A DNA stretch of 64,000 nucleotides from Candidatus Dormiibacterota bacterium (GTDB taxonomy: Bacteria > Chloroflexota > Dormibacteria > CF-121): NCBI GenBank assembly GCA_035544955.1, contig DASZZN010000005.1:62001-126000 (forward strand). Direction: 5' to 3'. Below are positions 5,739 to 52,247 of the stretch, piece after piece. Every line of letters begins with the position of its first letter. Position 1 is the stretch's first letter. The notes beneath the pieces were generated by a model, which worked only from the letters and a program-made list of their open reading frames with translations, had not been told where the DNA came from and ran no database searches. The position numbers and the translations under genes are program-made.

Positions 5739-6081
5739 TCCTCATCCCGAACGTCTCAAACGCTCGCATGGCACTGAAGCGCCGCTCGCGTGGGCCGACG
5801 GGCCCGGGGGCGAGCGGACGATCAAAGTCCGCGGCAAGATCTTTGCCTTTCTCAGCGAGGACGGGGAGAAGCTGTACTTGACGGTCAAGCTGCCAGAATC
5901 CTCAGAGGCCGCGCTCGGTTTGCCGTTCACCTTCCCGACCCGCTATCGCCTTGGTCGGAGCGGCTGGGTTTCGGTACGGTTTCCGAAGGGCTCCGCGATC
6001 CCGGTGGACATGTTCCGGGATTGGATCGCAGAGAGCTATCGTGCGGTCGCGCCGGCGAGCCTGGTCAAAAAACTGGGCTAG
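5725..6081 (+). pseudogene. MmcQ/YjbR-like protein remnant, N-terminus lost
   Basis: The C-terminal two thirds match the MmcQ/YjbR fold (small DNA-binding-like proteins of unknown role): GERTIKVRGKIFAFLSEDGE, VKLPESSEAALGLPF, GRSGWVSVRFP, IAESYRAVAPASLVKKLG. The frame is open from 5725 (after TGA 5722-5724), but the usual N-terminal helix ending in a LSLPG-like turn is replaced by unrelated sequence, and no ATG/GTG/TTG occurs before TTG 5878, which would leave only 67 residues. No TANNNT box precedes the in-frame ATC at 5821. Most likely a 5'-truncated gene; a noncanonical start cannot be excluded. Its stop overlaps the stop of the converging debranching enzyme gene. Confidence 0.55.
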
Positions 6082-23094: not shown

Positions 23095-25200
23095 ATGACG
23101 ATCGCCGTTCGCCGAGGCACGACACCCACGCTCCGCCGGTCGTTCGTCGTGCCAGCTTTGCTCTGGGTCGTGCTGATGGCTCTGCTGGTGTTTCAGTTAT
23201 TCCTCACCTTCGGCTTCGACTGGCGCAGCGCACCGGCCACATTTCGGCCGAACGCTTCGTCGGTCGCCGGCTTCGTAGCGATCCTCGCCATGAGCAGCGT
23301 CGGCGCTCTTCTTGCCTGGCGCCGTCCGTCCAACCGCATCGGATGGTTGTTGCTGGCAATCGCACTGAATGCGATTTTTATCGACGTCCCTCGTCTGTAC
23401 GTCGGCGTCGCCGTTTATGTGCATCCTGGTCTGCTACCGGCCGCGCTCTGGGTGGCCTGGCTTGGTCAAGTGGTCTGGATCTTTCTCTTCACGCAGCTTC
23501 TTGTCGTGCTCCCGTTGGTGTTCCCGACCGGAACCCTCTTGAGCCGCCGCTGGTTCTTCGTTCTATGGCTGGCCGCGATCCCGGTGCTTCTGGTAGTCAT
23601 CGCCTCGCTCGATCCGACGGCGACGGCCCCGCTTCCGAACCCGATGGGGGTCAAGGCAGTGGCGGGATTCCTCAACAGCTCGCTTCAAGTCCCATTTGGC
23701 GTCACCTTCTTTGCGACTTCCGTGTTGGCGACCGCCTCGCTCATCCTTCGCTTTCGCCGGGGCGACGAACGAGAGCGACAGCAGATCAAATGGTTGCTCG
23801 CCGCGGTTTTGCTGGTGCTTGGATCTTTCATCGCTCAGTCGTTGTTCCCGCAACTCCAGAATGCGCCGCTGCTCCCCTTGGCCGCCGCGACCCTGCCCGT
23901 GGCGATCGGGATCGCGGTCTTACGCTACCGCCTCTATGACATCGACGTCATCATCAACAAGGCGCTCGTGTTCGGGGGACTCGCGGCCGTCATCACAGCT
24001 GTGTACGTCCTGCTCGTCGTTGGCATCGGGGCGCTGATTGGAAGCAATCAACGGTTCTTGCTCTCATTGGTCGCAACCGCCGTCATTGCGCTCGCGTTCC
24101 AGCCACTGCGTCACCGAGCTCAGCGCCTTGCCAACCGGTTCGTTTACGGGACGCGGGCGACGCCCTACGAGGTGCTCTCGCAGTTCAGTGAGCATCTCTC
24201 AGCGACGTACTCGCACGAAGACATCCTCGAACGCATGGCACGAATCCTGGCGCAGGGCACCGGTGCGGAGCGAGCCGAGGTCTGGGTCCGGGCAGGGCAG
24301 CGGCTCTTGCTCGCCTCCTCTTCACCGCAACCGGCCGAGCCGCTCATGCCGCTGGTCATGCAAAATGGCGCCCTGCCCGACATGCAACGCGACACGGTCG
24401 TCCCGGTCAGTCACGCGGGAGAGTTGCTCGGCGCCCTGGCGGTCAGCAAGAAACGAGGCGGGACCATGAACAACGTCGAGCAGAAGCTGGTCACGGATCT
24501 CGCCGGCCAGGCCGGCCTGGTGCTGAAGAACGTTGGCCTGAACCAGGAACTGCTCGCAAGGCTCGACGACCTTCGGGCGTCCCGGCAGCGCCTCGTGACG
24601 GCCCAGGACGAGGAGCGCCGTCGGCTCGAGCGCGACCTGCACGACGGGGCGCAGCAGCACCTGGTGGCCCTCAAAATCAAGCTCGGGCTTGCGGAGGCGG
24701 CGGCCCAGCCCGAAACCAAGGTCCGCGCCCTGATTACGCAGCTTAAGCAGGACGCTGACGCCGCCATCGACACCATGCGCGACCTCGCCCGAGGTATCTA
24801 TCCGCCACTCCTGGCGTCGGATGGCCTCGAGGCCGCACTGCGCGGGCAGATCCGCCGCAGCACCGTCCCCGTCGACCTGGAGGTCGACGACGTATCGCGC
24901 CAGCCGCGCGAGGCCGAGGCCGCGGTGTACTTCTGCTGTCTCGAAGCGCTTCAAAACGTAGCCAAGTACGCGCAGGCCCACCGCGTCCGTCTGCGGCTGT
25001 GGACGGAAGAAGCCGATCTCGCCTTCCGCGTCGAGGACGACGGCAAGGGCTTCGATGCCATGACGGTTCCCCAGGGCTCCGGCCTCCAGAACATGAGGGA
25101 CCGAATGGAGGCGCTCGCTGGCTCGCTCGAGGTCCGTAGCACGCCTGGCGGCGGGACCACGATCGAGGGGCGAATTCCGGTAGGGCTAGCTTCCCCCTGA
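23095..25200 (+). CDS. Multi-TM GAF sensor histidine kinase (HisKA_3)
   Basis: 701 residues. Eight to nine membrane segments in the first 330 residues with the family marks LVFPTGTLLSRRW and LRYRLYDIDVIINKALVFGG, then NRFVYGTRATPYEVL, a GAF domain (about 360-480), a dimerisation helix with the phospho-acceptor His517 (RRLERDLHDGAQQHL), and an ATPase domain with N box CLEALQNVAKYAQ and G boxes DDGKGFD and GSGLQNMRDR. All catalytic residues are present. It begins three bases after the cyclase-regulator stop, so the two are a cognate pair; the transmembrane part may sense a membrane-soluble or membrane-state signal. Confidence 0.9.
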   Translation: MTIAVRRGTTPTLRRSFVVPALLWVVLMALLVFQLFLTFGFDWRSAPATFRPNASSVAGFVAILAMSSVGALLAWRRPSNRIGWLLLAIALNAIFIDVPRLYVGVAVYVHPGLLPAALWVAWLGQVVWIFLFTQLLVVLPLVFPTGTLLSRRWFFVLWLAAIPVLLVVIASLDPTATAPLPNPMGVKAVAGFLNSSLQVPFGVTFFATSVLATASLILRFRRGDERERQQIKWLLAAVLLVLGSFIAQSLFPQLQNAPLLPLAAATLPVAIGIAVLRYRLYDIDVIINKALVFGGLAAVITAVYVLLVVGIGALIGSNQRFLLSLVATAVIALAFQPLRHRAQRLANRFVYGTRATPYEVLSQFSEHLSATYSHEDILERMARILAQGTGAERAEVWVRAGQRLLLASSSPQPAEPLMPLVMQNGALPDMQRDTVVPVSHAGELLGALAVSKKRGGTMNNVEQKLVTDLAGQAGLVLKNVGLNQELLARLDDLRASRQRLVTAQDEERRRLERDLHDGAQQHLVALKIKLGLAEAAAQPETKVRALITQLKQDADAAIDTMRDLARGIYPPLLASDGLEAALRGQIRRSTVPVDLEVDDVSRQPREAEAAVYFCCLEALQNVAKYAQAHRVRLRLWTEEADLAFRVEDDGKGFDAMTVPQGSGLQNMRDRMEALAGSLEVRSTPGGGTTIEGRIPVGLASP

Positions 25201-36712: not shown

Positions 36713-37381
36713 TTACCCCTTCTCTTCCGACAGGTAGAGCAGGGCAGCTCTGACTCGCCGGTGCGTGTCCTTCTCCTCGGCCAGGCTGAGCTTGGAAAAG
36801 ATCGAGTTGATGTGCTTCTCGACAGCTCGCTCGGTGAGGAAGAGCGTGGCCGCGATCGCCGCGTTGTTCTTCCCCTGGGCCATGAGCGCGAGGACCTCGT
36901 GCTCACGCGGGGTGAGCTCGGCGAGCGGCGACTTTGGCTTGCGGGCCTTGGCCGCCACCAGGCTCTCGATCACCTTGGGATCGATGACCGAACCGCCGTT
37001 GGCCACCTCGCGGATGGCGGTCACCAGCTGCTCGATGTCGGAGACGCGCTCTTTTAATAGGTACGCGCGGCCGCTGGCGCCCTTCTGCAACAGCGCCAGC
37101 GCATAGTCCGGCTCGCTGAACTGGCTGAGGATGACGACGCCGATCCGTGGGTGGTGCTGGCGCAGCTGCTCGGCGGCTCGAATCCCTTCGTCGGTCCCGG
37201 TTGGCGGCATGCGGATGTCAGTCAGCACGACGTCCGGCTGATGCTGCTCGACCGCCGCTAACAGGGAGTCAAAGTCCGTGCACACGGCGACCACTTGGAG
37301 CTCCGGCTGGGCGTCGATCAGTTGCCGGACGCCTTCACGGACGAGGTAGTTGTCCTCGGCCAGCACGACGCGGATTGGCAC
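36713..37381 (-). CDS. NarL-type response regulator
   Basis: 222 residues from GTG 37381. Receiver with Asp55 (VVLTDIRMPPTG) and Lys (YLLKERVSD), then a GerE helix-turn-helix LTPREHEVLALMAQGKNNAA, IAATLFLTERAVEKHINSIF. GTG 37381 rather than the upstream GTG 37402 is chosen because TATTCT lies six bases before it and because it begins the fold exactly (MPIRVVLAEDN). Receiver sequence is close to that of the cyclase fusion at 21775, including the shared insert after TDIRMPP. First gene of a two-gene unit with the fumarate-reductase flavoprotein. Its kinase may be one of the HisKA_3 kinases nearby. Confidence 0.9.
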   Translation of the reverse strand: MPIRVVLAEDNYLVREGVRQLIDAQPELQVVAVCTDFDSLLAAVEQHQPDVVLTDIRMPPTGTDEGIRAAEQLRQHHPRIGVVILSQFSEPDYALALLQKGASGRAYLLKERVSDIEQLVTAIREVANGGSVIDPKVIESLVAAKARKPKSPLAELTPREHEVLALMAQGKNNAAIAATLFLTERAVEKHINSIFSKLSLAEEKDTHRRVRAALLYLSEEKG

Positions 37382-37387
37382 GGCAAC

Positions 37388-37393
37388 AGAATA
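37388..37393 (-). promoter_or_regulatory. -10 box of leaderless NarL-type regulator gene
   Basis: TATTCT on the minus strand, then GTTGCC, then GTG 37381. The 6-nt gap decides the start codon. Confidence 0.6.
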
Positions 37394-37495
37394 GGGCTTC
37401 ACGCGGGGTCCAGCGGGTCGAGCTGGCCGCCGAGCTCAGGGGGTGCTGGCACCATTTTTGCGGCCCTGAAAATCTGTCATTCTGTATCTGGTCAC

Positions 37496-37870
37496 ATGGC
37501 AGTACGGGTACTCATCGTTGACGATCAGGCGCCGTTCCGGCAGGCGGCGCGGGCCGTCGTCGAGGCGACCGACGGCTTCGAGGTGATTGCCGAATCCGAA
37601 ACCGGCGAGGCTTCGGTCGAGGCAAGCCAGACCCTGCACCCCGACCTGGTCTTGATGGATGTCAACCTGCCTGGGATCAACGGCCTCGAGGCCACCCGGC
37701 AGATCCTCAAGAACTCCAACGGCACCGTGGTCGTGCTGCTCCTCTCCACCTACGAAGAGGCCGAGTACGCGCCGCGTGCCGCCGAATGCGGGGCATCCAC
37801 CTACATTTCGAAGTCCAAATTCGAGCCCGACCGGCTTGCAGCTGCCTGGGAAGGTGCCCAGAAGCACTAG
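37496..37870 (+). CDS. Receiver-only response regulator
   Basis: 124 residues: acidic residues DD at 9-10, Asp55 (LVLMDVNLPGINGLEATRQI), Thr/Ser and Lys positions in LLLSTYEEAEYAPRAAECGA and YISKSKFEPD. No output domain, so it acts by protein contact, as a phosphate sink or a relay. ATG 37496 lies five to six bases after GTATCTG, again with no ribosome site. Divergent from the NarL-type regulator and 17 bp overlapping the membrane protein gene behind it. Confidence 0.85.
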   Translation: MAVRVLIVDDQAPFRQAARAVVEATDGFEVIAESETGEASVEASQTLHPDLVLMDVNLPGINGLEATRQILKNSNGTVVVLLLSTYEEAEYAPRAAECGASTYISKSKFEPDRLAAAWEGAQKH

Positions 37871-38450
37871 GATCTCGAGTCGCGTCGCGATCGCGTTCGC
37901 CACAGTGGCGGTGACGTTCGAGCTGGTGGCGGGTTTGATGTACTCCGCGGCCGCCGGTTTCTCCAACGGCCTGAGCGTCGACCCATCGAAGCTGCTCGCG
38001 TCAGGTCTCACCGGCGCCACGCTCATCCACTGGGGCAGCCTGATCGACATGTTCGGATACGTGTGCCTCGCCCCCGTCGTCCTCTACCTGCGCGATCGTT
38101 ACGCATCTGCGAAATACGTTGATCTCTTTGCGGCGGCCGGCCTGGCGGTCGTCGTCATCGGGTCGATCGGCGCGGCCTCGATGGCGACGGCAGCCCCGGC
38201 AATGATCAGCGACTACGTCGCGGCGAGCGCGGCGCAGAAGCAGGTCATCGTGCCCGCCTTTGCGACCTTGTACCGCGTCGTCGTCCTGGGAATGTGGCAG
38301 ACGCTGGAGACAATCCCCGCGGCAGTGTGGCTCCTCGGCACCGCGTACGCCGCGAGGAGAGAGGGGCCGCGGTCTGTCTTTGCGATCCTGCTTGTCATTG
38401 GAATCGTCAACGCGGCCATCGCGCTCTACCGGCTGGTTGCCGCCGGCTAG
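37854..38450 (+). CDS. Hypothetical membrane protein, about six TM
   Basis: 198 residues from GTG 37854, which overlaps the receiver gene by 17 bp. Hydrophobic segments near 13-33, 62-80, 92-115, 135-150, 155-170 and 178-195. No motif that I recognise; the layout resembles DUF4386-like small membrane proteins. The gene is translationally tied to the receiver-only regulator, so the two may act together. Its stop overlaps the stop of the converging kinase array by four bases. Confidence 0.7.
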   Translation: MPRSTRISSRVAIAFATVAVTFELVAGLMYSAAAGFSNGLSVDPSKLLASGLTGATLIHWGSLIDMFGYVCLAPVVLYLRDRYASAKYVDLFAAAGLAVVVIGSIGAASMATAAPAMISDYVAASAAQKQVIVPAFATLYRVVVLGMWQTLETIPAAVWLLGTAYAARREGPRSVFAILLVIGIVNAAIALYRLVAAG

Positions 38451-40459
38451 ACCAACAGCCCAAGCGGGATTGACCCGCCGAGGGTGCCGTTCTCGAATTG
38501 CAACGAGCCTCCAAGGGCTTCGACCCGGTCCTCCATCCGCTGTAACCGACCGTCCAGAGGTCCGCAGCCGCTGATCGAAAAGTCGACGCCGGTATCGCGC
38601 CCCCCAAGGCGCACGGCAGCCGGACCGGTTGCGCCCTGTAATGCCTCGACACAGCAGTAGTAGATCGCGGCCTCGACTTCGGACGGATAACGGTCGATCG
38701 TGTCGCTGTCGATCGCCACGGCTGGACTCACTCTGGCGAGGTGCGTCCTGAGCGCAGCGGCGAGTCCCTCGTCTTGGAGTACCGGCGGGTAGATCCCGCG
38801 AGCAAGGTCGCGTAGCTCCTCGAGGACCGCGGTGGCCTGCCCGGTCAATTGCTCAAGGGTCACCACGGCAGCTCCCGGGTCGCTGGTCAATCCCAGCTCT
38901 ACCGAGGTCAACGTCTCTCTGATGCGGATGAGCTCCTCCTCGCTACCGCGCCGGATCGTTTCCTCGAGGCGCCGACGCTCTTCGTCCTGCGCCGCGACGA
39001 TGCGCTGACGGGAGGTCCGCAGCTGGGCGGCTTGCGACGAGATTTCCGCAAGGCGGCTCCGGAGTTCTACGGTCATCCGCACGTTGTGCATCACCAGCCC
39101 GGCCTGGGCTGCGAGGTCAGTTAGCAGCTTGCCCTCCGCCGGCGTGATCGGCTCGCGCGCGGCTTTGGCGACCGCGATTTCGCCCATCGCCTCGCCGCGA
39201 TACGAAACTGGCAGAACTCGGTCGAATTGGTCAGCTTCCAGTCCGGCCGGCCAGGACACGACGCGCTCCGATCCATTCGGAAGGCCGAGGCGGATCCGGG
39301 TGGCCTTCGCTCCGACGCCGCGCGCCGCCGCCTCGGCCATCCTCGGCAGCACCTCATCGGCGGAAAGGGCGCCGGCCACCCGGTCGGAGAAATCGGCCAT
39401 GACCTCGTACGGTGTTGCCCGCTTGCCGTAGACCAGCCGGTTGGCGATCCGTTGCACTCGCTCCCGCACCGGCTGAAACGCGACCGCCACGATCGCGGTC
39501 GCGACGATCGAGAGAGCCAGGTTGGGTCTGCCCGCGCTGCCGACCAAGGTCCCGATCCCGACCACGATCCCAACATAGACGCCGGTGATGAAAATCGCGA
39601 GGGTGCCGAACACCAATGACTTGTTGATAACGATGTCGATGTCATAGAGCCGGTATTTCAGCATCGCGATCGCGATGCTGATTGGCAGCGCTGGAATGAA
39701 TAGCGTCAGCACGACCGACTGGATCTGCTGCGGAATTCCGGAACCGTGCATCATGAAGGGGACGATGACTAGCACGCCGCCGAACACAAACCATTTGAGC
39801 TGCTGACGCTCCTGACCTCGCGAACGCCTGAATCGCACCACCAGGGAAGCGACCGCGCCGGCTACCGCGATGAACAGGGGGATGACGCCGACGTTTGCGA
39901 GGGTGGTTAGGAGGGCGGTCTGACCGACGAGCCCCATCGGGTTGTTGATGCCGTGAAGGCCCGATAGCGGTCCGGGAACAAATGCATTGCCGATCCCGGC
40001 CAGCACGATGAACGGGATCGCAAGCCAGGCGGGGAAGCGCCATCGCGGCGACAGGGCGCGGCCGGTAGGGAAGAGCAGCGGGACGAAGACGACGAGCAGT
40101 GTGCTGATCGGAATCCAGAGCCAACCCGAGGTGAGCCAGGCGATGGCGAGGCCGCCGGGCCAGGATCCGTGCTCTCGAATCAGCGCGAACGCCGCATAGA
40201 CGGATCCGGCGTAGTTGAAGGTGATCAGCAGGCCAATAAGGGTGAAGACCCATCCCAGCGCGTTTCTCGGCTGACGTGAAACAACCAGTGCTCCGATCGC
40301 TGAGAGGGACAGCGCCCAGAGCATCGGATAGAACGACCACACAAGCGATGTCGACACCCCAAGTCCAGGCACCGTGTCGAGTAGGGAGCCGCCGATGCCC
40401 AGCGCGGCGGACAGCCCGGCGGCGCTCCAGGCGATCCGGGCCGCAGTACGGGTGGTCAC
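38447..40459 (-). CDS. Degenerate GAF sensor kinase (array member 4), predicted inactive
   Basis: 670 residues. The membrane domain (FPTGRALSPRW, LKYRLYDIDIVINKSLVFGT), the linker NRLVYGKRATPYEV and the GAF domain are well kept, but the kinase core is not: the H box reads RRLEETIRRGSEEEL, with Arg503 where paralogues have His; the N box reads CVEALQGATGPAAVRLGG, lacking the Asn; G1 is GCGPLDG, lacking the Asp. Neither phosphorylation nor ATP binding is expected, yet the frame is intact to the end, arguing for selection as a sensing or partner subunit. GTG 40459 overlaps the stop of member 3 as GTGA. Confidence 0.88.
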   Translation of the reverse strand: MTTRTAARIAWSAAGLSAALGIGGSLLDTVPGLGVSTSLVWSFYPMLWALSLSAIGALVVSRQPRNALGWVFTLIGLLITFNYAGSVYAAFALIREHGSWPGGLAIAWLTSGWLWIPISTLLVVFVPLLFPTGRALSPRWRFPAWLAIPFIVLAGIGNAFVPGPLSGLHGINNPMGLVGQTALLTTLANVGVIPLFIAVAGAVASLVVRFRRSRGQERQQLKWFVFGGVLVIVPFMMHGSGIPQQIQSVVLTLFIPALPISIAIAMLKYRLYDIDIVINKSLVFGTLAIFITGVYVGIVVGIGTLVGSAGRPNLALSIVATAIVAVAFQPVRERVQRIANRLVYGKRATPYEVMADFSDRVAGALSADEVLPRMAEAAARGVGAKATRIRLGLPNGSERVVSWPAGLEADQFDRVLPVSYRGEAMGEIAVAKAAREPITPAEGKLLTDLAAQAGLVMHNVRMTVELRSRLAEISSQAAQLRTSRQRIVAAQDEERRRLEETIRRGSEEELIRIRETLTSVELGLTSDPGAAVVTLEQLTGQATAVLEELRDLARGIYPPVLQDEGLAAALRTHLARVSPAVAIDSDTIDRYPSEVEAAIYYCCVEALQGATGPAAVRLGGRDTGVDFSISGCGPLDGRLQRMEDRVEALGGSLQFENGTLGGSIPLGLLV

Positions 40460-42624
40460 AACACAGCCTCCATCGCCCCAATGGGGACCGTTCCGCGGAC
40501 ACGTGTGCCGCCGTTGGCCGTGGAGCGGATCTCGAGCCAGCCGCCCATGCCTTCGATCCGATCCATCATGTTTCGAAGTCCGGAACCCCTGGCTTCCCTG
40601 GCCACGTCGAAGCCGGCTCCGTCGTCGCTCACCTCAAACGAGAGCTCATGGATAGACGAGCGCAGGTTGATCTCGACGCGAGAGGCCCGGGCGTGCTTGG
40701 TAACGTTCTGCAGCGCTTCGAGGCAGACGAAGTAGACGGCGGCCTCGACCTCGACCGGGTAGCGTTCGAGGTGACCAGCGTGGAGGGTGACTGAAAAGGG
40801 CAGCTTCGCCACCTCGACGCGTATCGCCGCAGCGAGTCCTTGCTCCCGAAGCAGCGGTGGGTAAATGCCGCTCGCTAATGCGCGGAGCGTCTCCAGCGCC
40901 TGATCGCTATCGGACTCGAGCGCCTTCACCGAAGCCCGCGCGCGCTCAGGATCACGCTTGGCCAGGCTGGTGGCGAGGCGCAGTCTTACGGTCAGCGCCA
41001 CGAGATTCTGCTGAGCGCCGTCGTGAATGTTTCGCTCGAGCCGGCGCCGCTCCGCATCTTGCGTCGCCACGATGCGCTGCCGCGACGCCCGCAGCTCGAC
41101 GGCCTGTTGCGAGATCTCCGTCAGTCGCGCCTGCAGTTCAGCCGTGAGGCGGACGGTCTGCAGCACGAGGCCCGCTTGCGCCGCCAGATCGGCGAGGAGC
41201 TTCTCTTCGATCGGTGTCAGCAGTTCACCGGTGCGCTTGTTGATGCTCAGAGCCCCGAGCAGCTCCCCCTGGTGCCGAACGGGCACGATGCGGCTGACCC
41301 CGGGGACCGCCGGGAGCAGCTGGCCGCTGATCGCGACGCGCGGCGACACAGGGCCGTCACCGGAGGGCCAGGAGGCGGCGGGCGCAATGCCATCACCGAG
41401 CCGAATCCACACATCCGCGCGCGATGCGCCGGTGCCCTCGGAGAGCACGCGAGCCATCCGCGGGAGGACGTCCTCACTCGAATAGGTGCCGGCGACGCGG
41501 TGCGAAAACTGCGAGAGGACCTCATAGGGAGTGGCGCGTTTGCCATAGACCAGGCGGTTGGCCAGGCGCTGGACTCGCTCGCGGACGGGCTGGAAGGCAA
41601 CGGCGACGATCGCGGTAGCAAGGACCGACAAAGCGAGGTTCGGCCGGCTTCCGCTGCCGAGCAATCCGCCGATGCCCACGACGATGGCGACGTAGACCGC
41701 CGTGATGAATGTCGCCATCGCCCCGAAGACGACCGACTTGTTGATGACCAGGTCGATGTCGTACAGGCGGTATTTGAGAACCGCGATGGTCGTCGCCACC
41801 GGTAGTCCGTAGGCCACGGCATAGGCGCCGACCGTCCATTCGATGTCACCGACCCAGTGCGAATGAGTCAGGGCGCCGAGAGGTATCGCGATAAGGACGT
41901 CCACGCAAACAAGCACCACCACGTAGAGAAACCACTTGAGCTGTTGCCGCTCTTCGCTCGCCGCCCGGCGAAATCGGGAGAGCATGCCGGCGCCGCAGGT
42001 GAGGATAAGCAGGACGAGACTGATGTTGAAGACCGCCAGCGCGATGTTGATCAGGCCCGCCAGCTGCGGCAAACCGGTCGGGTTCGGTAGGAGAGCGAAC
42101 TGGTGATAGATTCCCTGATTACCGGCCCGAAGCTCAAGCGGCCGGACCATGTAGACCACCCCCTCGAGGGCAGCCTCGATCACGATCAACCAGAGGATCG
42201 GCCGCCACCGCGGTGACGGCGGCCGCCCGGTCGGAAACAGCAGAACCAGGAGCGGAAGAATGGCCCCCGTGGCCACCTGACCGACCCATGGATAGAACCA
42301 GGCGACGAAGGCGGCCGCGGGGAGAGACCCGGGCGCGATGACAAAAGCGCGGAGCGCGTACTCGCCGGCGAACGATTGGATCTGGATCCATAGGGCAAAC
42401 CCCAGGACGAGCCAGCCAATCGGATTCTCGGGCCGTCGCAAGGCGATCAGCAGGCCGAGCGCGGGAAAGACCAGGAAGAACCCGAGTCCCAGGCCCACGA
42501 GAACAGGGTTGCCAAAGCCCACCGCTGTGCTGTCGATGATGGTGAGAGCGAGGAAGGCCGCGCCGATGGCGAGCGTCAAGCCGAGGAGGAACCAGGCGAG
42601 CCGCCGGGCCTTACGCTGATTCAC
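40456..42624 (-). CDS. Multi-TM GAF sensor histidine kinase (array member 3), intact
   Basis: 722 residues from GTG 42624, overlapping member 2's stop as GTGA. Membrane domain with FPTGRPPSPRW and LKYRLYDIDLVINKSVVFGA, NRLVYGKRATPYEVL, GAF 365-490 (VRHQGELLGALSINKR), His534 (RRLERNIHDGAQQNL), N box CLEALQNVTKHAR, G boxes DDGAGFD and GSGLRNMMDR. All catalytic residues present. The longer open frame upstream is coding sequence of member 2 in another phase. Confidence 0.9.
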   Translation of the reverse strand: MNQRKARRLAWFLLGLTLAIGAAFLALTIIDSTAVGFGNPVLVGLGLGFFLVFPALGLLIALRRPENPIGWLVLGFALWIQIQSFAGEYALRAFVIAPGSLPAAAFVAWFYPWVGQVATGAILPLLVLLFPTGRPPSPRWRPILWLIVIEAALEGVVYMVRPLELRAGNQGIYHQFALLPNPTGLPQLAGLINIALAVFNISLVLLILTCGAGMLSRFRRAASEERQQLKWFLYVVVLVCVDVLIAIPLGALTHSHWVGDIEWTVGAYAVAYGLPVATTIAVLKYRLYDIDLVINKSVVFGAMATFITAVYVAIVVGIGGLLGSGSRPNLALSVLATAIVAVAFQPVRERVQRLANRLVYGKRATPYEVLSQFSHRVAGTYSSEDVLPRMARVLSEGTGASRADVWIRLGDGIAPAASWPSGDGPVSPRVAISGQLLPAVPGVSRIVPVRHQGELLGALSINKRTGELLTPIEEKLLADLAAQAGLVLQTVRLTAELQARLTEISQQAVELRASRQRIVATQDAERRRLERNIHDGAQQNLVALTVRLRLATSLAKRDPERARASVKALESDSDQALETLRALASGIYPPLLREQGLAAAIRVEVAKLPFSVTLHAGHLERYPVEVEAAVYFVCLEALQNVTKHARASRVEINLRSSIHELSFEVSDDGAGFDVAREARGSGLRNMMDRIEGMGGWLEIRSTANGGTRVRGTVPIGAMEAVL

Positions 42625-44783
42625 GCGATCGGCTCCAGGGCGCGCGCCGGAATCCAGCCTTCGACGGTGGTTCCGGCACCTCGCGCCGATCGCACCTCGA
42701 GGCTGCCGCCCAGTGCGCGGACGCGGTCGGTCATCGTTTGCAGGCCGGGGCCTGGTTCGCCATGTTGCTGCTCGAACCCTGGGCCGCTGTCGGTGATCGA
42801 GAATGTCGCGCGGCCGTCTGTCGCGCTTAACCAGACAACCGTCGGGGCCGCGCCGGCGTGCTGGGCAACGTTTTGCAGGGCCTCGACGCAACAGAAGTAC
42901 ACGGCACCTTCGACCTGCTCATCGAAGCGATTGGTTGCGAACTCTCGATCCGTGTCGAGCTGGACGGGGACGCGGGCCTTTTTCAGATAGGCCTGCAGCG
43001 CCGCGACCGCTCCCTTGTCGATAAGCAGCGGAGGGTAGATGCCGCGGGCCAAATCGCGCAGCAGCTCGAGGATTTCGTTGGCCTCATCGGTCAGTTGGCC
43101 GAGGACGGTGGCCGCCCCGGCGGCGTCGCGCTGGACCAGCTGGCGGGCGCCGGCAATTCGGCCCGCGATCGACAGCAGGCGTGGCTCGGTTGCCGCCTGG
43201 ATGTTGCGCTCCAGCTGACTCCGCGCGACGTTCCCCGCGGCCACCAGCCGCTGGCGCGCCGCACGCAGCTCGGCAGCTCGAGCGGAACTCTCACGAAGTC
43301 GCGCCTGGAGCTCCACTGTCAGCCGCACATTCCGGATGACCAACCCCGCCTGGGCGGCCAGGTCGGTCAGCAGATTCTCCTCGACCGGCGTCAGCCCTTC
43401 CCCTGGACGCTTATTGATACTCAGGGCACCGAGCAATTCCCCCTGGTGCCGAACCGGAACGATCCGGCTGACGCCCGAGACCGGCGGAAAGCCCTGTCCG
43501 GCAATCGAGACCGGCGACGGGGTCGGACCGTCGACCGCCGGCCACGCCGCCGCGGGAACGATCTGGTCGTCCAGGCGGATCCAGACGTCCGCGCGCGAGG
43601 CACCCGTCGCCTCGCCCAGCACGGTGGCCATTCGAGGCAAGACCTCTTCACTGGAATAGACACTGCCGACGCGGTCGGAAAACTGCGACAGCACTTCGTA
43701 CGGCGTGGCACGTTTGCCATAAACGAGGCGGTTGGCAAAGCGCTGGACCCGGTCACGAACTGGTTGAAATGCCACCGCCACGACGGCCGTCGCAAGAATC
43801 GATAGGGTGAGATTGGGTTGGCCGGCCGAACCGATGAGGTTTCCGATGCCGACAACGATGCCGACGTAGACCGCGGTAATGAAAGCGGCAAGGGCAGCAA
43901 AGACGACCGACTTGTTGATGATGGGGTCGATGTCGTAGAGACGATATTTGAGGATGGCGACCGCGGCCGCTCCGGGGAGCCCTATATCCAGGGCTAAGGT
44001 CAAGAGCGACCAGCCCACGGCCGACACCAATCCGGTCCCGCTGAAAACCGGAGTGATGGAGACGACGAGGACCGCACCTGCATAAGCAAGCCACTTGAGC
44101 TGCTGCCGCTCCTCACCTCGCGAGCGAATGAAGCGCAGGACGAGCGCGCTCAGCGACGCGATCCCGATCACAGGAAGAGCCAGTTGCAGGGCCGCTGCGC
44201 TCGTCAGCAGCAGGGCGCGCCAATCGTTGACGCCGGTCGGATTCATGGCGAGGTTGAACCGATGTCCCTCGCCAAGGTTGGTGCCCAGGATCGGGCCCGG
44301 TGTGAGGATCGCGACGATCGCTTGCAAACCCGCGACCGTCAGGGCGAGCCAGGCGACGACCTTCCAGCGACCCGACAGCAGCCGACCGTTCGGGAACAGC
44401 AGGAAAAACAGCGGCAGCCCGCCATCGAGGGCCAGATACAACGGCCAGAATTGAAGCCACGCGACGAATGTCGCGGCCGGAAGCGACCCGGGCGCCGTGT
44501 GCAGGCCGAGGATCGCGTACTCCAAACCAAAGAACGCAATCGCGTAATTCAAGCCGAGGACAGCCAGGATCCATCCGACCGGATTCCTGGGATGGCGAAC
44601 CGCAATGAGGGCACCAAGTGTGCTGTATGCCAGGCCCGGAAGGAAGATCGTTGGAACGACGATAAAAGAGGCGCCGCCCAGCGTGGAACGGTTGGGGAAA
44701 AGGAGCAATAGCCCGGCGGCCGTAAAAACGAGAGCGACGCCCCAAATCGACAAGGCGAGCCGGCGCGCCGCAGGCGCGCTCAT
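42621..44783 (-). CDS. GAF sensor kinase lacking phospho-acceptor His (array member 2)
   Basis: 720 residues. Membrane, linker and GAF regions match the paralogues closely. The H box is RSQLERNIQAATEPRLL: Gln529 replaces His and the following DGAQQ is lost. The ATPase domain is complete (N box CVEALQNVAQHAG, G1 DSGPGFE, G2 GPGLQTMTDR). It could bind ATP and phosphorylate a partner in trans but cannot be the acceptor. ATG 44783 overlaps the stop of member 1 as ATGA. Confidence 0.9.
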   Translation of the reverse strand: MSAPAARRLALSIWGVALVFTAAGLLLLFPNRSTLGGASFIVVPTIFLPGLAYSTLGALIAVRHPRNPVGWILAVLGLNYAIAFFGLEYAILGLHTAPGSLPAATFVAWLQFWPLYLALDGGLPLFFLLFPNGRLLSGRWKVVAWLALTVAGLQAIVAILTPGPILGTNLGEGHRFNLAMNPTGVNDWRALLLTSAAALQLALPVIGIASLSALVLRFIRSRGEERQQLKWLAYAGAVLVVSITPVFSGTGLVSAVGWSLLTLALDIGLPGAAAVAILKYRLYDIDPIINKSVVFAALAAFITAVYVGIVVGIGNLIGSAGQPNLTLSILATAVVAVAFQPVRDRVQRFANRLVYGKRATPYEVLSQFSDRVGSVYSSEEVLPRMATVLGEATGASRADVWIRLDDQIVPAAAWPAVDGPTPSPVSIAGQGFPPVSGVSRIVPVRHQGELLGALSINKRPGEGLTPVEENLLTDLAAQAGLVIRNVRLTVELQARLRESSARAAELRAARQRLVAAGNVARSQLERNIQAATEPRLLSIAGRIAGARQLVQRDAAGAATVLGQLTDEANEILELLRDLARGIYPPLLIDKGAVAALQAYLKKARVPVQLDTDREFATNRFDEQVEGAVYFCCVEALQNVAQHAGAAPTVVWLSATDGRATFSITDSGPGFEQQHGEPGPGLQTMTDRVRALGGSLEVRSARGAGTTVEGWIPARALEPIA

Positions 44784-46954
44784 ACGACCGGCTCCAAGTT
44801 GCGGATAGGAACGCGACCCTGCACCGACGTTCCGCCTTCGCGCCCGGGAATCACCGTCAGGTGACCACCGAGGGCTGCCAGCCGGTCGGCGATATTCTGC
44901 AAACCAGAGCCGTGGCGGACGCGCAGCGGGTCGAACCCGCCCCCGTCGTCGTCGACGGAAAACGCCAGTTCACCGCCTCGGTCCTCGAGACGGATTCGCA
45001 CACGTGTCGCTTTGGCGTGCTTCACCACGTTCTGGAGTGCCTCGAGACAGCAGAAGTAGACCGCGCCCTCCACCTCGGACGGATACCGCGTCAGGCTGGT
45101 CGCTGAGACGTCGATAGGGAGGGGAAACCGCGCGCCCTGGGCGCGGACGGCCGACTCCAATCCCAGCTCGCGAAGGATCGGTGGATAGATGCCCCGCGCC
45201 AGCGCGTGAAGCGTCTCGAGCGCCTGGTGGGTCTCCCCCTCGAGCTCGTCAAGGAGCCGGGCCGCGCGAGCGGGGTCGCGTTTCGCGAGCGTCGCCGCCA
45301 GTCGAAGCTTCACGGCGATCGCCACCAGGTGCTGCTGCGCACCGTCGTGGATGTTGCGTTCCAGCCGGCGCCGCGTCGAGTCCTGGGCGGCGATGATCCG
45401 GGCGCTGGACGCCTGCAGCTCAGTGGTTTGGGCCGAGATCTCGGCCAGGCGCGCCTGAAGTTGCCGGGTCAGTTGCAGGTTGCGGAGGACGACGCCTGCC
45501 GGTGATGCGAGATCGGCCAGCATCTTTTCATCGACTGGCGTGACGGCTTCGCCACGGGCCTTTCGAATGCTGAGCGCGCCGAGCAGTTCCCCCTGGTGCT
45601 GCACGGGAACCATGCGATCGCTGCTTGACCGTTCGGTGATCGAAGGCGCCGTCATCGCCGACCCATTTGGTGCGGGCCAAGAGGCGAGGGTGGTATTTTC
45701 AGCGCCCTCCTTCGCCCAGATCACGGCCTGTACGGCGCCAGTCGATTCGGCGATGGTTTGCGCCAACCGCGGCAGGACCTGTTCATCCGAGTAGGTCGAT
45801 GCGAGGCGGTCCGAAAACTGCGACAGTGCCTCATAAGGAGTGGCGCGCTTCCCGTACACGAGCCGGTTCGCTACACGCTGGATCCGTTCACGAACAGGTT
45901 GGAACGCAACCGCCACGAGCGCGGTCGCCAGGATCGAAAGCCCAAGATTTGGCTTACCACTCGTGCCCACCAGGCGGCCGATGCCGACCACGATCGCGAC
46001 GTAAACGGTCGTGATGAAGATGGCCAGAGCGCCGTAAACGAGCGACTTGTTGATCACGAGGTCGATGTCGTAGAGCCGGTACTTCAAGACGGCAATCGCC
46101 GTCGCGACGGGGAGCCCAACGACGAATCCGGCCAGGAGGACGGCAAAGGAAAAGTCCTGTAGTGCTGGGTTGCCTGTAAAGCCAAATGGACCGCCGCTCC
46201 CCAGGAAGGCCGACCCGAGGACTCCGACAGCGATGAACGACCCGACGTAACCCACCCATTTGAGCTGCTGACGCTCATCGCCTCGTGCCCGAACGAGTCG
46301 GATCACAAGTCCAACCGCCGCGATCAGGATCAGCACGAACGCTCCCATCCGTCCGACGATGTCGGCCAGGTCGAGCGCCCCGCCGAGCGCGCCGATGCCG
46401 AATGGATTCTGGACGCCGAAGTCGGTGCCTGGCCCGCTCGGCGGCCGGAGCGCATCGCCCATGCGGCCGGGTGAGAACATCGAGCCAACCACCATGAGCA
46501 GGGCGCAGCTGATGCTGACCCAGACCAGGGGCCGCCAGCGCGCTGACGCCGGCCGGCCGGTCGGGAAGAGCAGCAGCACGAGGGCGATACCGGCGGGGAA
46601 GACGAACCAGAGTGACCAACGCTCCAGCCAGGCGAAATACACGGCCCCGGGCAGCGAGCCCGGATGGTCGACCAGGCCGCGGATCGCGTACTGCTGGGAG
46701 AAGGTGGTCAGGGCTCCCAGGAAACCCATGGCGCAATAGAGCCAGCCGATCGGGTTAGCCGATCGCCTGGATGCGATCACCGCTCCCGTCGTCGACAGGG
46801 CAAACCAGGCGGTGGCGTTCCACCAGGATCTGTTGGTCACGAGCAGCACCAGGGTTGACACGCTCAATCCCAGGGCGAGAACCCACAGCGACCAGGCCAA
46901 CCAGGCGGCGGTCGTCGGCCTCAGTTTCCCGAGCACGCCTCGATCCTGAGCCAT
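44780..46954 (-). CDS. Multi-TM GAF sensor histidine kinase (array member 1), intact
   Basis: 724 residues, first gene of the array. Membrane domain to about residue 335 (LLFPTGRPASARWRPL, LKYRLYDIDLVINKSLVYGA), NRLVYGKRATPYEAL, GAF 375-490, His536 (RRLERNIHDGAQQHL), N box CLEALQNVVKHAK, G boxes DDGGGFD and GSGLQNIADR. Fully equipped. No ribosome site or -10 box was obvious before ATG 46954; the 122-bp gap to the divergent PPOX gene must hold the array promoter. Confidence 0.9.
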   Translation of the reverse strand: MAQDRGVLGKLRPTTAAWLAWSLWVLALGLSVSTLVLLVTNRSWWNATAWFALSTTGAVIASRRSANPIGWLYCAMGFLGALTTFSQQYAIRGLVDHPGSLPGAVYFAWLERWSLWFVFPAGIALVLLLFPTGRPASARWRPLVWVSISCALLMVVGSMFSPGRMGDALRPPSGPGTDFGVQNPFGIGALGGALDLADIVGRMGAFVLILIAAVGLVIRLVRARGDERQQLKWVGYVGSFIAVGVLGSAFLGSGGPFGFTGNPALQDFSFAVLLAGFVVGLPVATAIAVLKYRLYDIDLVINKSLVYGALAIFITTVYVAIVVGIGRLVGTSGKPNLGLSILATALVAVAFQPVRERIQRVANRLVYGKRATPYEALSQFSDRLASTYSDEQVLPRLAQTIAESTGAVQAVIWAKEGAENTTLASWPAPNGSAMTAPSITERSSSDRMVPVQHQGELLGALSIRKARGEAVTPVDEKMLADLASPAGVVLRNLQLTRQLQARLAEISAQTTELQASSARIIAAQDSTRRRLERNIHDGAQQHLVAIAVKLRLAATLAKRDPARAARLLDELEGETHQALETLHALARGIYPPILRELGLESAVRAQGARFPLPIDVSATSLTRYPSEVEGAVYFCCLEALQNVVKHAKATRVRIRLEDRGGELAFSVDDDGGGFDPLRVRHGSGLQNIADRLAALGGHLTVIPGREGGTSVQGRVPIRNLEPVV

Positions 46955-47583: not shown

Positions 47584-48040
47584 GGTCCGGCGACTCCTGC
47601 CGGGCTTTTCCGGCCCTGTCCTGACCGGCGTGGACTGTGACGGCTACCCGTTCAGCATTCGGTGCATCCCCTCGCTGGATGAGGAGCAACAGGTATTGCG
47701 TGTGTCTCTACCGGAGTGGAGTCGGATCGCGCCGGGGCCGGCCAGCCTGCTGTGCCATGGCCATAACCAGTTGCTCTGGGACCTGCGCAGCTTCATGATT
47801 CGCGGCACGCTAGAGCCGAGCGGCGAGACCTGGCTGTTCCGACCGTCACGTTTCGTGCCAGGCATCGGCATTGGCGGCCTGGCAGGAATGGTGCGGTTCG
47901 CCCTGGCCAAACGGCGGGCCGCCGGGCGTTACCTGGATCGGCGAGGGCTGGCTCGACCTAGGATCGATTGGGCGCAACTGAAGGCGGTGCAGGCCCGAGC
48001 TTGCCAGCCGTCGCCGGCTCAGCGGCAGCCGCCGGGATAG
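47573..48040 (+). CDS. Small protein coupled to PPOX-like gene
   Basis: 155 residues from ATG 47573, whose first 11 bases lie inside the previous gene. VRRLLPGFSGPVLTGVDCDG, YPFSIRCIPS and ASLLCHGHNQLLWDLRSFMI suggest a second, diverged split barrel acting as a partner of the preceding protein. Cys and His residues in CHGH are noteworthy. Its 3' 83 bases are antisense to the tail of the converging kinase gene. Confidence 0.65.
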   Translation: MWAEVRRLLPGFSGPVLTGVDCDGYPFSIRCIPSLDEEQQVLRVSLPEWSRIAPGPASLLCHGHNQLLWDLRSFMIRGTLEPSGETWLFRPSRFVPGIGIGGLAGMVRFALAKRRAAGRYLDRRGLARPRIDWAQLKAVQARACQPSPAQRQPPG

Positions 48041-50060
48041 AACCGGTCACGCGCGTACCCGCTCCCGGCGAGCTCACGACCTGAAGCTCGCCACCCAGCA
48101 CCTCGATCCGGTCCCGCATGTTCTGCATCCCCGAGCCGGATCGTGCCCGCTCGGGATCCAGCCCGCGGCCATCATCGGTGACGGAGAAAACCAGGCGCCC
48201 ATCGCGTTGCTCGATGCGCACCGCCGCCTTTGTCGCGTTGGCGTGCTTCACCATATTCTGCAGCGCCTCCAGTACGCAGAAGTACACGCCCGCCTCGGTC
48301 TCCTGCGGGTAGCGGGGGAGGGGACCGCCCTCCACCTCGACGGGTACGGGGGTTCGGCGGGCTTGCGCCTCAACGGCGGCGAGCAGCCCGTCCTGCGCGA
48401 GGATCGGTGGATAGAGCCCGCGAGCCAGCTCACGAAGCGTCTCGATCGCCTCGTTAGCGTCCCCCGTCAGCTCATCGAGGGTCGCCTGGGCACGCTGCGG
48501 ATCCGTCGCCGCCACGTTCTTCATGAGGGCGATCTTCAACTTCAGCGCAACGAGGTTTTGCTGTGCGCCGTCGTGCAGGTTGCGCTCGAGGCGCCGCCGC
48601 TCGGTGTCCTGGGCACTGACCAGTCGTTGCCGGGATGCTTGCAGCTCATCGAGACGCTGCACCAGCTCGGCGGTGAGACGCGTGTTCTTCAGGACAAGCC
48701 CGGCCTCGCGTGAAAGGTCGGCGAGCAAGCGGCTCTCTGTGGCGGTCATCGGCTGCCGCTTGGAGACGGCCAGCGCTCCCAACAGCTCGCCCTGGTAGCG
48801 GACGGGCACCGCCTCCGCAACCCCGCTGATCAGCGGCAGCTCATCGCTCGATAGGGGGAGGGTGCTCGGGCCGCCGGCGCCGGCCGGCCATGACGCCGCC
48901 CGCCGAAGCTCATGCCCGACCCGCAGCCACACAGTGGCGCTATCCGCCGCGGTTCCCTCGGCCAGCACCTGCGCCATCCGAATCGGCAGCTCATCACTCG
49001 CGTACATTTCCGACACGCGCTTGCTGAACTGCGAGAGCACTTCATACGGCGTCGCGCGTTTGCCGTAGACGAGGCGGTTGGCCAGCCGCTGAAGCCGGCG
49101 CCGAACTGGCTGAAAGGCCAGGGCGACGATGGCACCAACGGCTACCCCCGCCGCAGGGTCGTTCCGTGGCAACTGTCCTACTCGGCTGCCGACGGTGACG
49201 ACCGTGATGAAGTAGATGACGCTGATCAGGACGACGAGCGTGCCGTAAACGAGCGTCTGCCGGATGAGGACGTCGATGTCGTAGAGGTGGTATCTGAGTA
49301 CGGCGATCCCGATCGAGCCCGCCAGCGCAGTGAACGCCAGTGGCGTCAGCACATCAAAGATTGGATTGAAGACGACGGTGTTGTTGTGGTAAACGAGCGA
49401 CCCGACGACGACCCCGGAGAGGGCGACGACGACCAGCAGTAGTCCGGCGAGCGCGAACCAGCGGATTTGCTGGCGCTCATCCGCACCAGCACGGCGGTAA
49501 CGGATGAACAGGCTGGCATTCGCGAGCACCGAACCGACCAGACCCATGAGCTGGCCGACATAGATCCCGAACAAAGCGAGCCCGAAGCCCCCGAGGACGA
49601 GCGGGACGAGGAGCCACCAGCGGGGCGAGACCGGCCTCCCATCGGGGAAGAGCAGGGGCAGGAAAAACAGCATCAGCACGACCGGCAGCGCCCATTCCCA
49701 TTGCTCCAGCCAGCGAACGAAGTCAAGAGCGGGGAGTGATCGGTTGACGTATGTCCCAAAGGTCTCGTACCCTAGCCCGAACTCGTAGACGGCGGTCAGC
49801 AGGCCGATCCCGCACGCCACCCAGCCGATGCGGTTGCCGGGCCGGCGGGCGACGATCAGCGCACCGACGAGCGCAAAGGCGAGCGCGTACAGCAGGCTGA
49901 GCCGAATCCACCACCCGTCGATGACCGCCAGGACCTGTTGCGAAATCAGCGGGGTCGGCGTCGCGCCCCGAAGCGCGTTGCCGGCAATGAAGAGCGCCAG
50001 GGTCCCGATGACGCTCCCCCACGCGAGCCAGTCTGAACGGCGGCGCAGAGCGGGAACCAT
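47958..50060 (-). CDS. Multi-TM GAF sensor histidine kinase, separate from the array
   Basis: 700 residues. Membrane domain (LLFPDGRPVSPRW, LRYHLYDIDVLIRQTLVYGT) to about 320, NRLVYGKRATPYEVL, GAF about 340-460, His496 (RRLERNLHDGAQQNL), N box VLEALQNMVKHAN, G boxes DDGRGLD and GSGMQNMRDR. Intact. More diverged from the four array members than they are from one another, notably in the membrane domain. Divergent from the second debranching enzyme gene with 21 bp between starts; TACCCT lies only two bases before ATG, so the true start may be slightly inside. Confidence 0.9.
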   Translation of the reverse strand: MVPALRRRSDWLAWGSVIGTLALFIAGNALRGATPTPLISQQVLAVIDGWWIRLSLLYALAFALVGALIVARRPGNRIGWVACGIGLLTAVYEFGLGYETFGTYVNRSLPALDFVRWLEQWEWALPVVLMLFFLPLLFPDGRPVSPRWWLLVPLVLGGFGLALFGIYVGQLMGLVGSVLANASLFIRYRRAGADERQQIRWFALAGLLLVVVALSGVVVGSLVYHNNTVVFNPIFDVLTPLAFTALAGSIGIAVLRYHLYDIDVLIRQTLVYGTLVVLISVIYFITVVTVGSRVGQLPRNDPAAGVAVGAIVALAFQPVRRRLQRLANRLVYGKRATPYEVLSQFSKRVSEMYASDELPIRMAQVLAEGTAADSATVWLRVGHELRRAASWPAGAGGPSTLPLSSDELPLISGVAEAVPVRYQGELLGALAVSKRQPMTATESRLLADLSREAGLVLKNTRLTAELVQRLDELQASRQRLVSAQDTERRRLERNLHDGAQQNLVALKLKIALMKNVAATDPQRAQATLDELTGDANEAIETLRELARGLYPPILAQDGLLAAVEAQARRTPVPVEVEGGPLPRYPQETEAGVYFCVLEALQNMVKHANATKAAVRIEQRDGRLVFSVTDDGRGLDPERARSGSGMQNMRDRIEVLGGELQVVSSPGAGTRVTGSIPAAAAEPATAGKLGPAPPSVAPNRS

Positions 50061-50081: not shown

Positions 50082-52247
50082 ATGCCAGTCACGGTTGGGC
50101 CGTCGACCCTGACCATCAACTACGATCGACAGTTCCTGATCAGCCAGCCCAACGCCACCATGCTCCCCCAGGATGACGTCGGCTTCTACGCGAGCGACAC
50201 GCGATTCGTCAGCGGATACGGCCTCACCCTTAATGGGCGGTCCCCGAAGTTACTCGACGCCATCGCGGTCGAGCACTTCTCCGCACGGTACGAATTCATG
50301 ACGCCGGAGCTTCCCCTCGGTCCCGGCTCGAATGCCGGTGCCGATGGACTCCTTCCGGAAGGCTCGATCGGGTTGCGGCTGGAGCGCACCATCCTCGAAG
50401 GGATCCATGAGGACTACGACCTCACGAACTACGCGATGTATCCCGTGCGGCTCGTGCTCGAAATCGCCATCGAGTCGGATTTCGCCGACGTCTTCGATGT
50501 CCGGAGTCACCGGCTGATCCGCCGTGGCGACCTGCAGACCACTTGGCTGCCCCGCATGGGGGAGTTGCGCAGCACCTACCGGAACCGCAGTTTCCGGCGC
50601 GGCCTCCTGGTCAAGGTCGAGAAGGCGGGATCCAAGCCGGAATACGCGAATGGTCGACTGGTGTTCCGGCTCGATCTCGCCCCCAGGGCGGAATGGCATA
50701 CCTGTCTGAAATGGCTGCCGGTGATCGGTCCGCGGCCGGCTCGCACGCTGCCCTGTCACGCCCTCCTCCTTGACGAGTCGCGCCGGATGCACAAGCTTCC
50801 GCCGCTCGAGATCGTGACCAGTCATCCCACGCTTCCCGCGATCTGGCGACAGGCGGTGGAGGACACCGATGCGCTGCGCATGGTCGATACCACGGTCAGG
50901 GGCGGCATGTTCGTGCCCGCGGCCGGCATCCCCTGGTTCGTGACCCTGTTCGGCCGCGACTCGCTGGTCGTCTCCATGGAAAGCATCAGCGCCTTTCCCG
51001 AGTTCGCGCTCGGAGCGCTGCGGACCCTGGCCCGGCTGCAGGCGACCGATGACTCAGCGGAGCAGGACAAAGAACCGGGAAAGATCCCGCACGAGATCCG
51101 CACCGGCGAGTTGGCGAGCTTGAAGCTCCTGCCCTTCGCGCCCTACTACGGCACGGCGGATGCCACGCCGCTGTTCATCATCGTGCTCTCTTACGCCTAC
51201 CAGTGGTCGGGGGACGTTGCCTTGCTGCAGCGCTATCGCCGCAATGCTGAGGCCGCCCTGAACTGGCTGCTGCAGTACGGGGATCGGGACGGTGACGGGT
51301 TCCAGGAATACTCGCGGCGCTCGAGCCAGGGCATCTTCAACCAGGGATGGAAGGACTCCTGGGATGGGATCCGGCATGGGGACGGTTCGATCCCGGAGGC
51401 ACCCATCGCGCTCTGCGAGCTGCAGGGCTACGCGTTCGACGCGCTACTGCGGATGGCGGAAATCTACGACCTGCTAAAAGAGCCGGACAAGGCGGCCGAC
51501 CTTCGCGAGCGCGCCCGGCAGCTGTACCAACGGTTCAACGAGGTCTTCTGGTGGGAGGCGGAGGGCACCTACTATCTCGGGCTCGACAAGGACAAGCGGC
51601 CGATGGAGACGGTGGCCTCGAACGCCGGCCACTGCCTCAGCAGCGGGATTGTGCCGCCCGACCGCGCCGAGCGGGTCGTCGACCGGCTAATGGCCGACGA
51701 CATGTGGAGCGGCTGGGGGATCCGGACGCTGTCGAGCAAGCACCCCGGCTACAACCCGTACTCGTACCACTGCGGATCGGTCTGGCCGCACGACAACGCG
51801 ACAATCGCGGGCGGCTTCCGCCGGGCCGGCCGGCACACCGAGGCCCAGCGAGTGGCGGAAGGGATCTTCGCCGCCGCCGAGCGCTTCGACGCCTACCGGC
51901 TGCCCGAACTGTTCAGCGGTCTGCCGCGAGATGCCGGCGCCTTCCCGGTGCCGTACCTTGGGGCAAATGTCCCACAAGCCTGGGCCGCCGCCGCGGTGTT
52001 CCGTCTGGTTGCCATCCTCTGCGGCATCCATACCGTCGGCCGGACGCGGACGATGTACGTCAATCCCGACCTCCCCGACTGGCTGCCCTCGCTGACCCTG
52101 CGCAACCTGCGGGCGGGCCGGGGGGCGATGGAGCTCCATCTCGAGCGCAACCGGGTCCAGGTCGCGGGCAATACCACCGGCTTCAAGGTGGTGCACGGCC
52201 GGCTGCCCCGGCCGGCGCTGGTCGAAGCGCCACTGGCTCGCTCCTGA
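50082..52247 (+). CDS. Amylo-alpha-1,6-glucosidase, copy 2
   Basis: 721 residues, same two-domain structure as the gene at 6078: N-terminal beta domain (LTINYDRQFLISQPNATML, YASDTRFVSGYGLTLNG) and (alpha/alpha)6 barrel (GIPWFVTLFGRDSLVVSMES, EPGKIPHEIRTGE, GDRDGDGFQEY, NQGWKDSWDGIRHG, GSVWPHDNATIAGGFRRAG). The two copies differ mostly in the N-terminal domain, suggesting different glucans. This copy opens the carbohydrate region and sits 150 bp before a sugar importer operon, favouring a role in processing imported oligosaccharides. Confidence 0.9.
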   Translation: MPVTVGPSTLTINYDRQFLISQPNATMLPQDDVGFYASDTRFVSGYGLTLNGRSPKLLDAIAVEHFSARYEFMTPELPLGPGSNAGADGLLPEGSIGLRLERTILEGIHEDYDLTNYAMYPVRLVLEIAIESDFADVFDVRSHRLIRRGDLQTTWLPRMGELRSTYRNRSFRRGLLVKVEKAGSKPEYANGRLVFRLDLAPRAEWHTCLKWLPVIGPRPARTLPCHALLLDESRRMHKLPPLEIVTSHPTLPAIWRQAVEDTDALRMVDTTVRGGMFVPAAGIPWFVTLFGRDSLVVSMESISAFPEFALGALRTLARLQATDDSAEQDKEPGKIPHEIRTGELASLKLLPFAPYYGTADATPLFIIVLSYAYQWSGDVALLQRYRRNAEAALNWLLQYGDRDGDGFQEYSRRSSQGIFNQGWKDSWDGIRHGDGSIPEAPIALCELQGYAFDALLRMAEIYDLLKEPDKAADLRERARQLYQRFNEVFWWEAEGTYYLGLDKDKRPMETVASNAGHCLSSGIVPPDRAERVVDRLMADDMWSGWGIRTLSSKHPGYNPYSYHCGSVWPHDNATIAGGFRRAGRHTEAQRVAEGIFAAAERFDAYRLPELFSGLPRDAGAFPVPYLGANVPQAWAAAAVFRLVAILCGIHTVGRTRTMYVNPDLPDWLPSLTLRNLRAGRGAMELHLERNRVQVAGNTTGFKVVHGRLPRPALVEAPLARS

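Follow-up and report, generated by a model that had tools for sequence, protein, structure and literature searches.

Why would a soil bacterium carry a row of four overlapping sensor kinase genes, two of which encode proteins without the histidine that accepts phosphate? Bacterial sensor kinases are generally regarded as homodimers, and genes for His-less kinases are easily dismissed as decayed, or overlooked when domain models fail. The question arises from a window of 64,000 nucleotides, in which four paralogous genes, here called K1 to K4, lie in tandem on the minus strand. The answer argued here, to which we assign a probability of about 0.6, is that the array would work through mixed dimers feeding one NarL-type regulator (36713-37402), with K4 as a selected silent subunit and K2 as an ATPase donor.

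Layout of the array and its neighbouring regulators

The array begins with K1 (44780-46954, 724 residues, ATG start) and continues through K2 (42621-44783, 720 residues, ATG start) and K3 (40456-42624, 722 residues, GTG start) to K4 (38447-40459, 670 residues, GTG start), all on the minus strand. Consecutive genes share a four-base stop/start overlap: ATGA at 44780-44783 between K1 and K2, GTGA at 42621-42624 between K2 and K3, and GTGA at 40456-40459 between K3 and K4, the junctions reading GTATGAGC, GCGTGAAT and TTGTGACC, respectively. The sequence-only reading had described four paralogues of about 700 residues joined in this manner, which the sequence bears out, and had given the H-box residues as His536, Gln529, His534 and Arg503 in order; the alignment places the same residues there (codons 45349-45347, 43199-43197, 41025-41023 and 38953-38951). 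Chance is not an issue for this array, because it consists of four open frames of 670-724 codons and the fourth is conserved across species.

All four proteins are built from the same parts: a membrane sensor with several helices, a GAF-like domain, DHp and ATPase regions, and a conserved membrane block (KYRLYDID...YGKRATPYE). The intact kinases are K1, with multi-TM sensor, GAF-like, HisKA_3 and HATPase_c domains, and K3, the upstream partner of K4; both match HisKA_3 (PF07730) and HATPase_c above the Pfam cut-off. The His-less K2 matches HATPase_c and GAF and has no Pfam match to HisKA_3, and the double-dead K4 has no Pfam domain match. Judged by their sequences, K2 and K4 are homologues by descent and not canonical HisKA_3 members. 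A further intact paralogue, K0 (47958-50060, minus strand), stands upstream of K1 with two plus-strand genes between them and is syntenic in the relative G010; another intact member of the same kinase family, K7, occupies 23095-25200 on the plus strand. The window also encodes two paralogous glycogen-debranching-enzyme-like proteins, at 6078-8252 (minus strand) and 50082-52247 (plus strand), and the second gene adjoins K0 and is syntenic in G010.

The likely partner of the array is the NarL-type response regulator (REC and GerE domains; 36713-37402), which lies 1 kb downstream of K4 on the same strand and is 95-97% identical in two relatives. An open frame at about 37436-37870 (plus strand) encodes a receiver-only protein, a neighbour kept at such arrays, and directly upstream of K7 lies the gene for a receiver protein with what reads as a nucleotide cyclase in its C-terminal part (21775-23091, plus strand). 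In both phyla examined, relatives of all three proteins occur beside arrays, and the NarL-type regulator directly precedes the kinase at some loci of the class that have a single kinase (G025:C11, G035:C45, G039:C32). Across 61 genomes, the regulator occurs in 15 of the 24 that have the kinases and in 2 of the 37 that lack them (Fisher p 1.7e-6). We infer that the regulator at 36713-37402 is the phosphotransfer target of the array. The first description had put no regulator in the operon and orphans behind it, but these neighbours are conserved partners rather than unrelated orphans.

Two patterns of loss in K2 and K4

Positions were counted as conserved when shared by at least 90% of 146 complete relatives. 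K2 keeps 8 of 20 such positions in alpha1, 12 of 14 in alpha2 (the second dimerisation helix), 23 of 25 in the ATPase domain and 27 of 29 in GAF, and the disparity between alpha1 and the ATPase domain (Fisher p 0.0003) therefore indicates that the acceptor helix was lost selectively. The N-box Asn, DxGxG and GxG of K2 are retained, and its acceptor His is gone. K4 keeps 11 of 20, 13 of 14, 13 of 25 and 23 of 29 positions in the same four regions, with an N-box that reads EALQG and no DxGxG. Because K4 lacks the ATPase motifs as well, the two proteins are dead in different ways: a histidine pseudokinase, defined by loss of both the acceptor and ATP binding, describes K4 and its orthologues and does not describe K2. 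At the HDGxxQ motif, where the Asp and Gln of DesK serve regulator contact and phosphatase action (PMC5231405), K2 reads Q-A-A..P and K4 reads R-R-G..E.

An AlphaFold model of K4, moderate in quality (mean pLDDT 78, pTM 0.48), retains the paired long helices of the DHp region, together with an ATPase-like sandwich in reduced form. The best PDB structural match to its DHp-CA part, and thus the closest solved fold, is DesK, a HisKA_3 kinase of Bacillus subtilis, and crystal structures of DesK H188E are among the nearest folds. Unlike K4, which has neither residue, DesK is intact, with a phospho-accepting His188 and Gln193 (PMC5231405). Sequence searches against PHROGs and the PDB returned nothing useful.

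The K4 lineage and the wider kinase family

The relatives within the genus are all draft assemblies, mostly metagenomic. G010, G001, G014, G007 and G008 (two copies) have K4 orthologues in which Arg replaces the His and the ATPase motifs are gone, and the N-terminal part of a K4 orthologue is found at a contig end in G013 and G005. Every K4 orthologue adjoins an intact partner through a four-base overlap, and the dead gene follows its partner everywhere but in G008. Pairwise NG86 estimates of dN/dS for the dead kinase region are 0.18 (K4-G010), 0.21 (K4-G001), 0.14 (G014-G007), 0.20 (the two G008 copies) and 0.29 (G014-G008), and intact genes give 0.12-0.19 among close orthologues and more for distant pairs. 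Two of the checks proposed with the sequence-only reading are thereby answered for K4: Arg occupies the same site in its genus orthologues, and dN/dS of 0.14-0.29, mostly 0.14-0.21, indicates purifying selection. A third, on the order of the array, went the other way: of the four-gene alternation, relatives share only the K3-K4 couplet, and K1 and K2 do not exist as separate genes at the syntenic locus of G010.

Comparison across two subgroups locates the relaxation within the dead copies. Their alpha1 identity is 0.46 versus 0.90 for intact copies, while alpha2 stands at 0.54 versus 0.53 and GAF at 0.64 versus 0.60; by these identities, alpha1 is relaxed in the dead copies and alpha2 and GAF are not. 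Frameshifts or stops in relatives, once named as the finding that would point to simple decay, show no excess: by inspection of the same draft genomes, 2 of 9 dead copies are broken, both of them K4 orthologues, versus 4 of 26 intact paralogues (Fisher p 0.64). It is highly probable that K4 is conserved and under selection.

A scan with a dead-kinase profile and further genome searches showed that the family also forms tandem arrays in Actinomycetota, the longest with about nine consecutive genes. The survey comprised 190 family ORFs, of which about 172 had a readable His site, and 15 lack the histidine: K2, seven K4-type copies and seven actinobacterial kinases. All 15 directly adjoin another family kinase, nearly always a complete one, and ATPase motifs are retained in K2 and in all seven actinobacterial members. 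For several kinases from Actinomycetota, an apparent loss of the ATPase proved to be an alignment artefact, the motifs being visible in the profile alignment. One actinobacterial genome carries about nine same-family kinases in tandem (L234 1-17347), the fourth without His. Two others of the family (L242 1004-3334 and L244 1821-4118) have Glu in place of the lost His, which may hint at a phospho-mimic by analogy with the DesK H188E structures near the K4 fold.

A tree built without the catalytic motifs joins K4-type copies to four kinases from Actinomycetota (support 100/99) and groups K2 with K1, K3 and related kinases (97/93). Other dead kinases from Actinomycetota form a clade apart (100/100), and so do the intact kinases next to them (100/99); in G110 and G111, the dead clade and the adjoining intact clade travel together as a couplet. 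On this placement, the K4 lineage has members in both the class of the window and Actinomycetota, and the K4-type and K2-type losses were probably separate events. FastTree suggested a single ancient origin of K2 and K4, which mixture-model trees do not support when either the kinase core or the catalytic motifs are left out; an AU test does not reject a single dead clade (p 0.067). Derivation of K1-K2 and K3-K4 from duplicated intact-dead couplets was dropped, since the mixture-model trees give no shared dead origin. One kinase inside the His-less lineage (L235 11836-14013) nevertheless has His at the site (IHEGPER), possibly by reversion from Arg or as a retained ancestral state.

In a Micromonosporaceae MAG (L156 3747-9248), overlapping genes encode a receiver-only protein, a His-less kinase, an ATPase-less kinase and a NarL-type regulator. 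The first kinase matches HATPase_c without HisKA_3 and keeps 25 of 25 ATPase positions and 12 of 20 in alpha1; the second, which overlaps it, matches HisKA_3 without HATPase_c and keeps 15 of 25 and 18 of 20, respectively. The REC-GerE regulator overlaps the end of the pair. Complementary loss of acceptor and ATPase within a gene pair was found in L156 only; in the window, K2 lacks the acceptor, yet neither K1 nor K3 has lost a function. No other single observation hints at mixed dimers as strongly as the reciprocal pair in L156. Among 198 genomes searched for relatives of this pair, one match outside its own genome stands clearly above the rest (46% identity).

Proposed mixed dimers, their alternatives and the probable exchange of sensors

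Pairing of the paralogous membrane kinases K1 to K4 as mixed dimers is fairly probable. Heterodimers are favoured because intact/dead couplets are conserved, the dimerisation helix is kept, purifying selection acts on the dead copies and one operon carries reciprocal losses; similar dead kinases beside working ones in two phyla suggest selected partner subunits, not broken genes. K4, without an acceptor or the usual ATP-binding motifs, still has a sensor of its own, a GAF relay and the dimerisation helix, and it would most likely partner K3, made just before it, and tune the activity of K3. Were autophosphorylation of K3 confined to trans, a dimer of K3 and K4 would have no activity and K4 would be an inhibitor; were it in cis, K4 could be a modulator. 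The sequence-only reading had taken phosphorylation in trans as general for HisKA_3 kinases, which is too narrow, as cis and trans autophosphorylation are both known among histidine kinases (PMC5956149).

K2 could donate phosphate yet not accept it, because its ATPase domain is kept and its acceptor is lost; paired with K1 or K3, it could phosphorylate its partner's His while itself offering no acceptor there. Whether K2 serves as such an ATPase donor is an even call. From sequence comparison we infer both the physical pairing and the direction of phosphotransfer. The original proposal of heterodimers joining members 2 and 4 to members 1 and 3 is favoured by the comparative evidence, and its K4 is not a case of decay, but its fixed order and its equivalence of K2 and K4 are not upheld. 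That only some subunits can accept phosphate agrees with the missing His of K2 and K4, but it is half the story, as K2 keeps the ATPase and K4 has neither function.

Simple decay would make K2 and K4 dying paralogues left by tandem duplication, and it is unlikely as an account of the pair. Tandem arrays are in flux, and two K4 orthologues, those of G001 and G007, are frameshifted, but decay of K4 is rejected in view of genus-wide purifying selection, an old lineage across two phyla and frameshifts no commoner than in intact paralogues. K2 is the more exposed member: its kinase core has diverged to an identity of 33-47% with any relative, and recent decay may have occurred, because K2 has no orthologue among 14 genus relatives and dN/dS on its kinase-core branch is near 0.9 by a rough triangle estimate that is saturated and unreliable. 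Against this, 23 of 25 ATPase positions are retained despite the low overall identity, and the 720-codon frame is full, with a codon-position GC that resembles its neighbours.

Selected dead subunits could also act in other ways. K4, and perhaps K2, might be a dominant-negative silencer that blocks autophosphorylation of its partner until its own ligand releases it, as RetS does with GacS; we consider this possible, though clearly the weaker account. The absence of acceptor and ATP-binding motifs beside an intact sensor, GAF and dimerisation helix in K4 accords with it, as do the known RetS/GacS and ChrS/HrrS heteromers. By sequence, however, a silencer is indistinguishable from an activating co-subunit, and the ATPase domains kept in K2 and in the seven His-less kinases from Actinomycetota suggest that those proteins contribute positively to catalysis. 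Still less probable, indeed quite improbable, is a kinase-independent role of dead homodimers, such as binding or dephosphorylating the regulator. Regulators are conserved neighbours, and HisKA_3 phosphatase action needs no histidine (PMC5231405). The Asp after the His and the Gln at +5 (PMC5231405) are lost, however, with A and P in K2, R and E in K4, and losses in most relatives too; Gln at +5 is retained in G010, G001 and the first L156 kinase, and the helix bearing these residues is strongly relaxed in dead copies.

The mixed-dimer reading has precedents, since heteromeric or split kinases are already known in FasBC, CheA3/CheA4 and ChrS/HrrS. FasB and FasC of group A Streptococcus, two co-transcribed membrane sensor kinases with one regulator, pair with each other but not with themselves in two-hybrid assays (PMC12675982). 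That system has two kinases, whereas four-kinase and larger arrays with a HisKA_3-type core and GAF are seen here, Arg, Gln or Glu replaces the His, and a conserved dead lineage crosses two phyla. CheA3/CheA4 of Rhodobacter sphaeroides (PMC3591291) splits acceptor and ATPase over two interdependent proteins, like the L156 pair, but these are of CheA type with whole domains missing, unlike the full-length membrane kinases with motif losses described here. For ChrS/HrrS of Corynebacterium glutamicum, a pseudokinase version alters output via the paralogous kinase, and the native kinases form heterodimers by two-hybrid (PMC9491836); in contrast to the present case, that pseudokinase came from laboratory evolution, and the two systems are separate, with no tandem array or natural conserved dead lineage. 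In the open-access literature, we found no description of natural tandem arrays of His-less kinases. To our knowledge, neither DivL (Caulobacter) nor RetS (Pseudomonas) is a tandem paralogue of the kinase it regulates. Like the role proposed for K4, DivL and RetS/GacS involve non-canonical kinases that control another kinase by contact (PMC9491836, PMC12675982).

The locus of G010 corresponds to the window gene by gene, but has a single intact kinase directly before K4. The sensor of this kinase is 79% identical to K1 versus 40% to K3, its kinase region is 74% identical to K3 versus 57% to K1, and the switch point falls in the conserved membrane block. At the K3 position, the sensor is K3-like in G013 (68%) and unrelated in G005 (34% or less), with kinase regions still alike (68% or more), while the K4 sensor is 67-81% identical across the same five genomes. 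The intact partner's sensor thus varies and the dead partner's is kept in the window's genus; the rule fails in Actinomycetota, where the sensors of both partners vary. To judge from these identities, sensors are swapped by recombination, in draft genomes where assembly error is possible. More tentatively, combinatorial heterodimers may operate in this soil lineage and in Actinomycetota, with arrays of complete, ATPase-only, acceptor-only and silent subunits whose sensors are swapped by membrane-block recombination. If so, the cell would rewire the inputs to one regulator and leave the output machinery unchanged. The conserved His-less lineage, always beside a family kinase, and the reciprocal pair offer natural test cases for pairing between unlike partners and for wiring new inputs onto an old output. 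Exchange may also reach beyond the sensors: the GAF region of K2 (residues about 356-500) is 75% identical to that of K3, compared with 35-38% for the sensor and kinase regions, which suggests gene conversion between the two genes.
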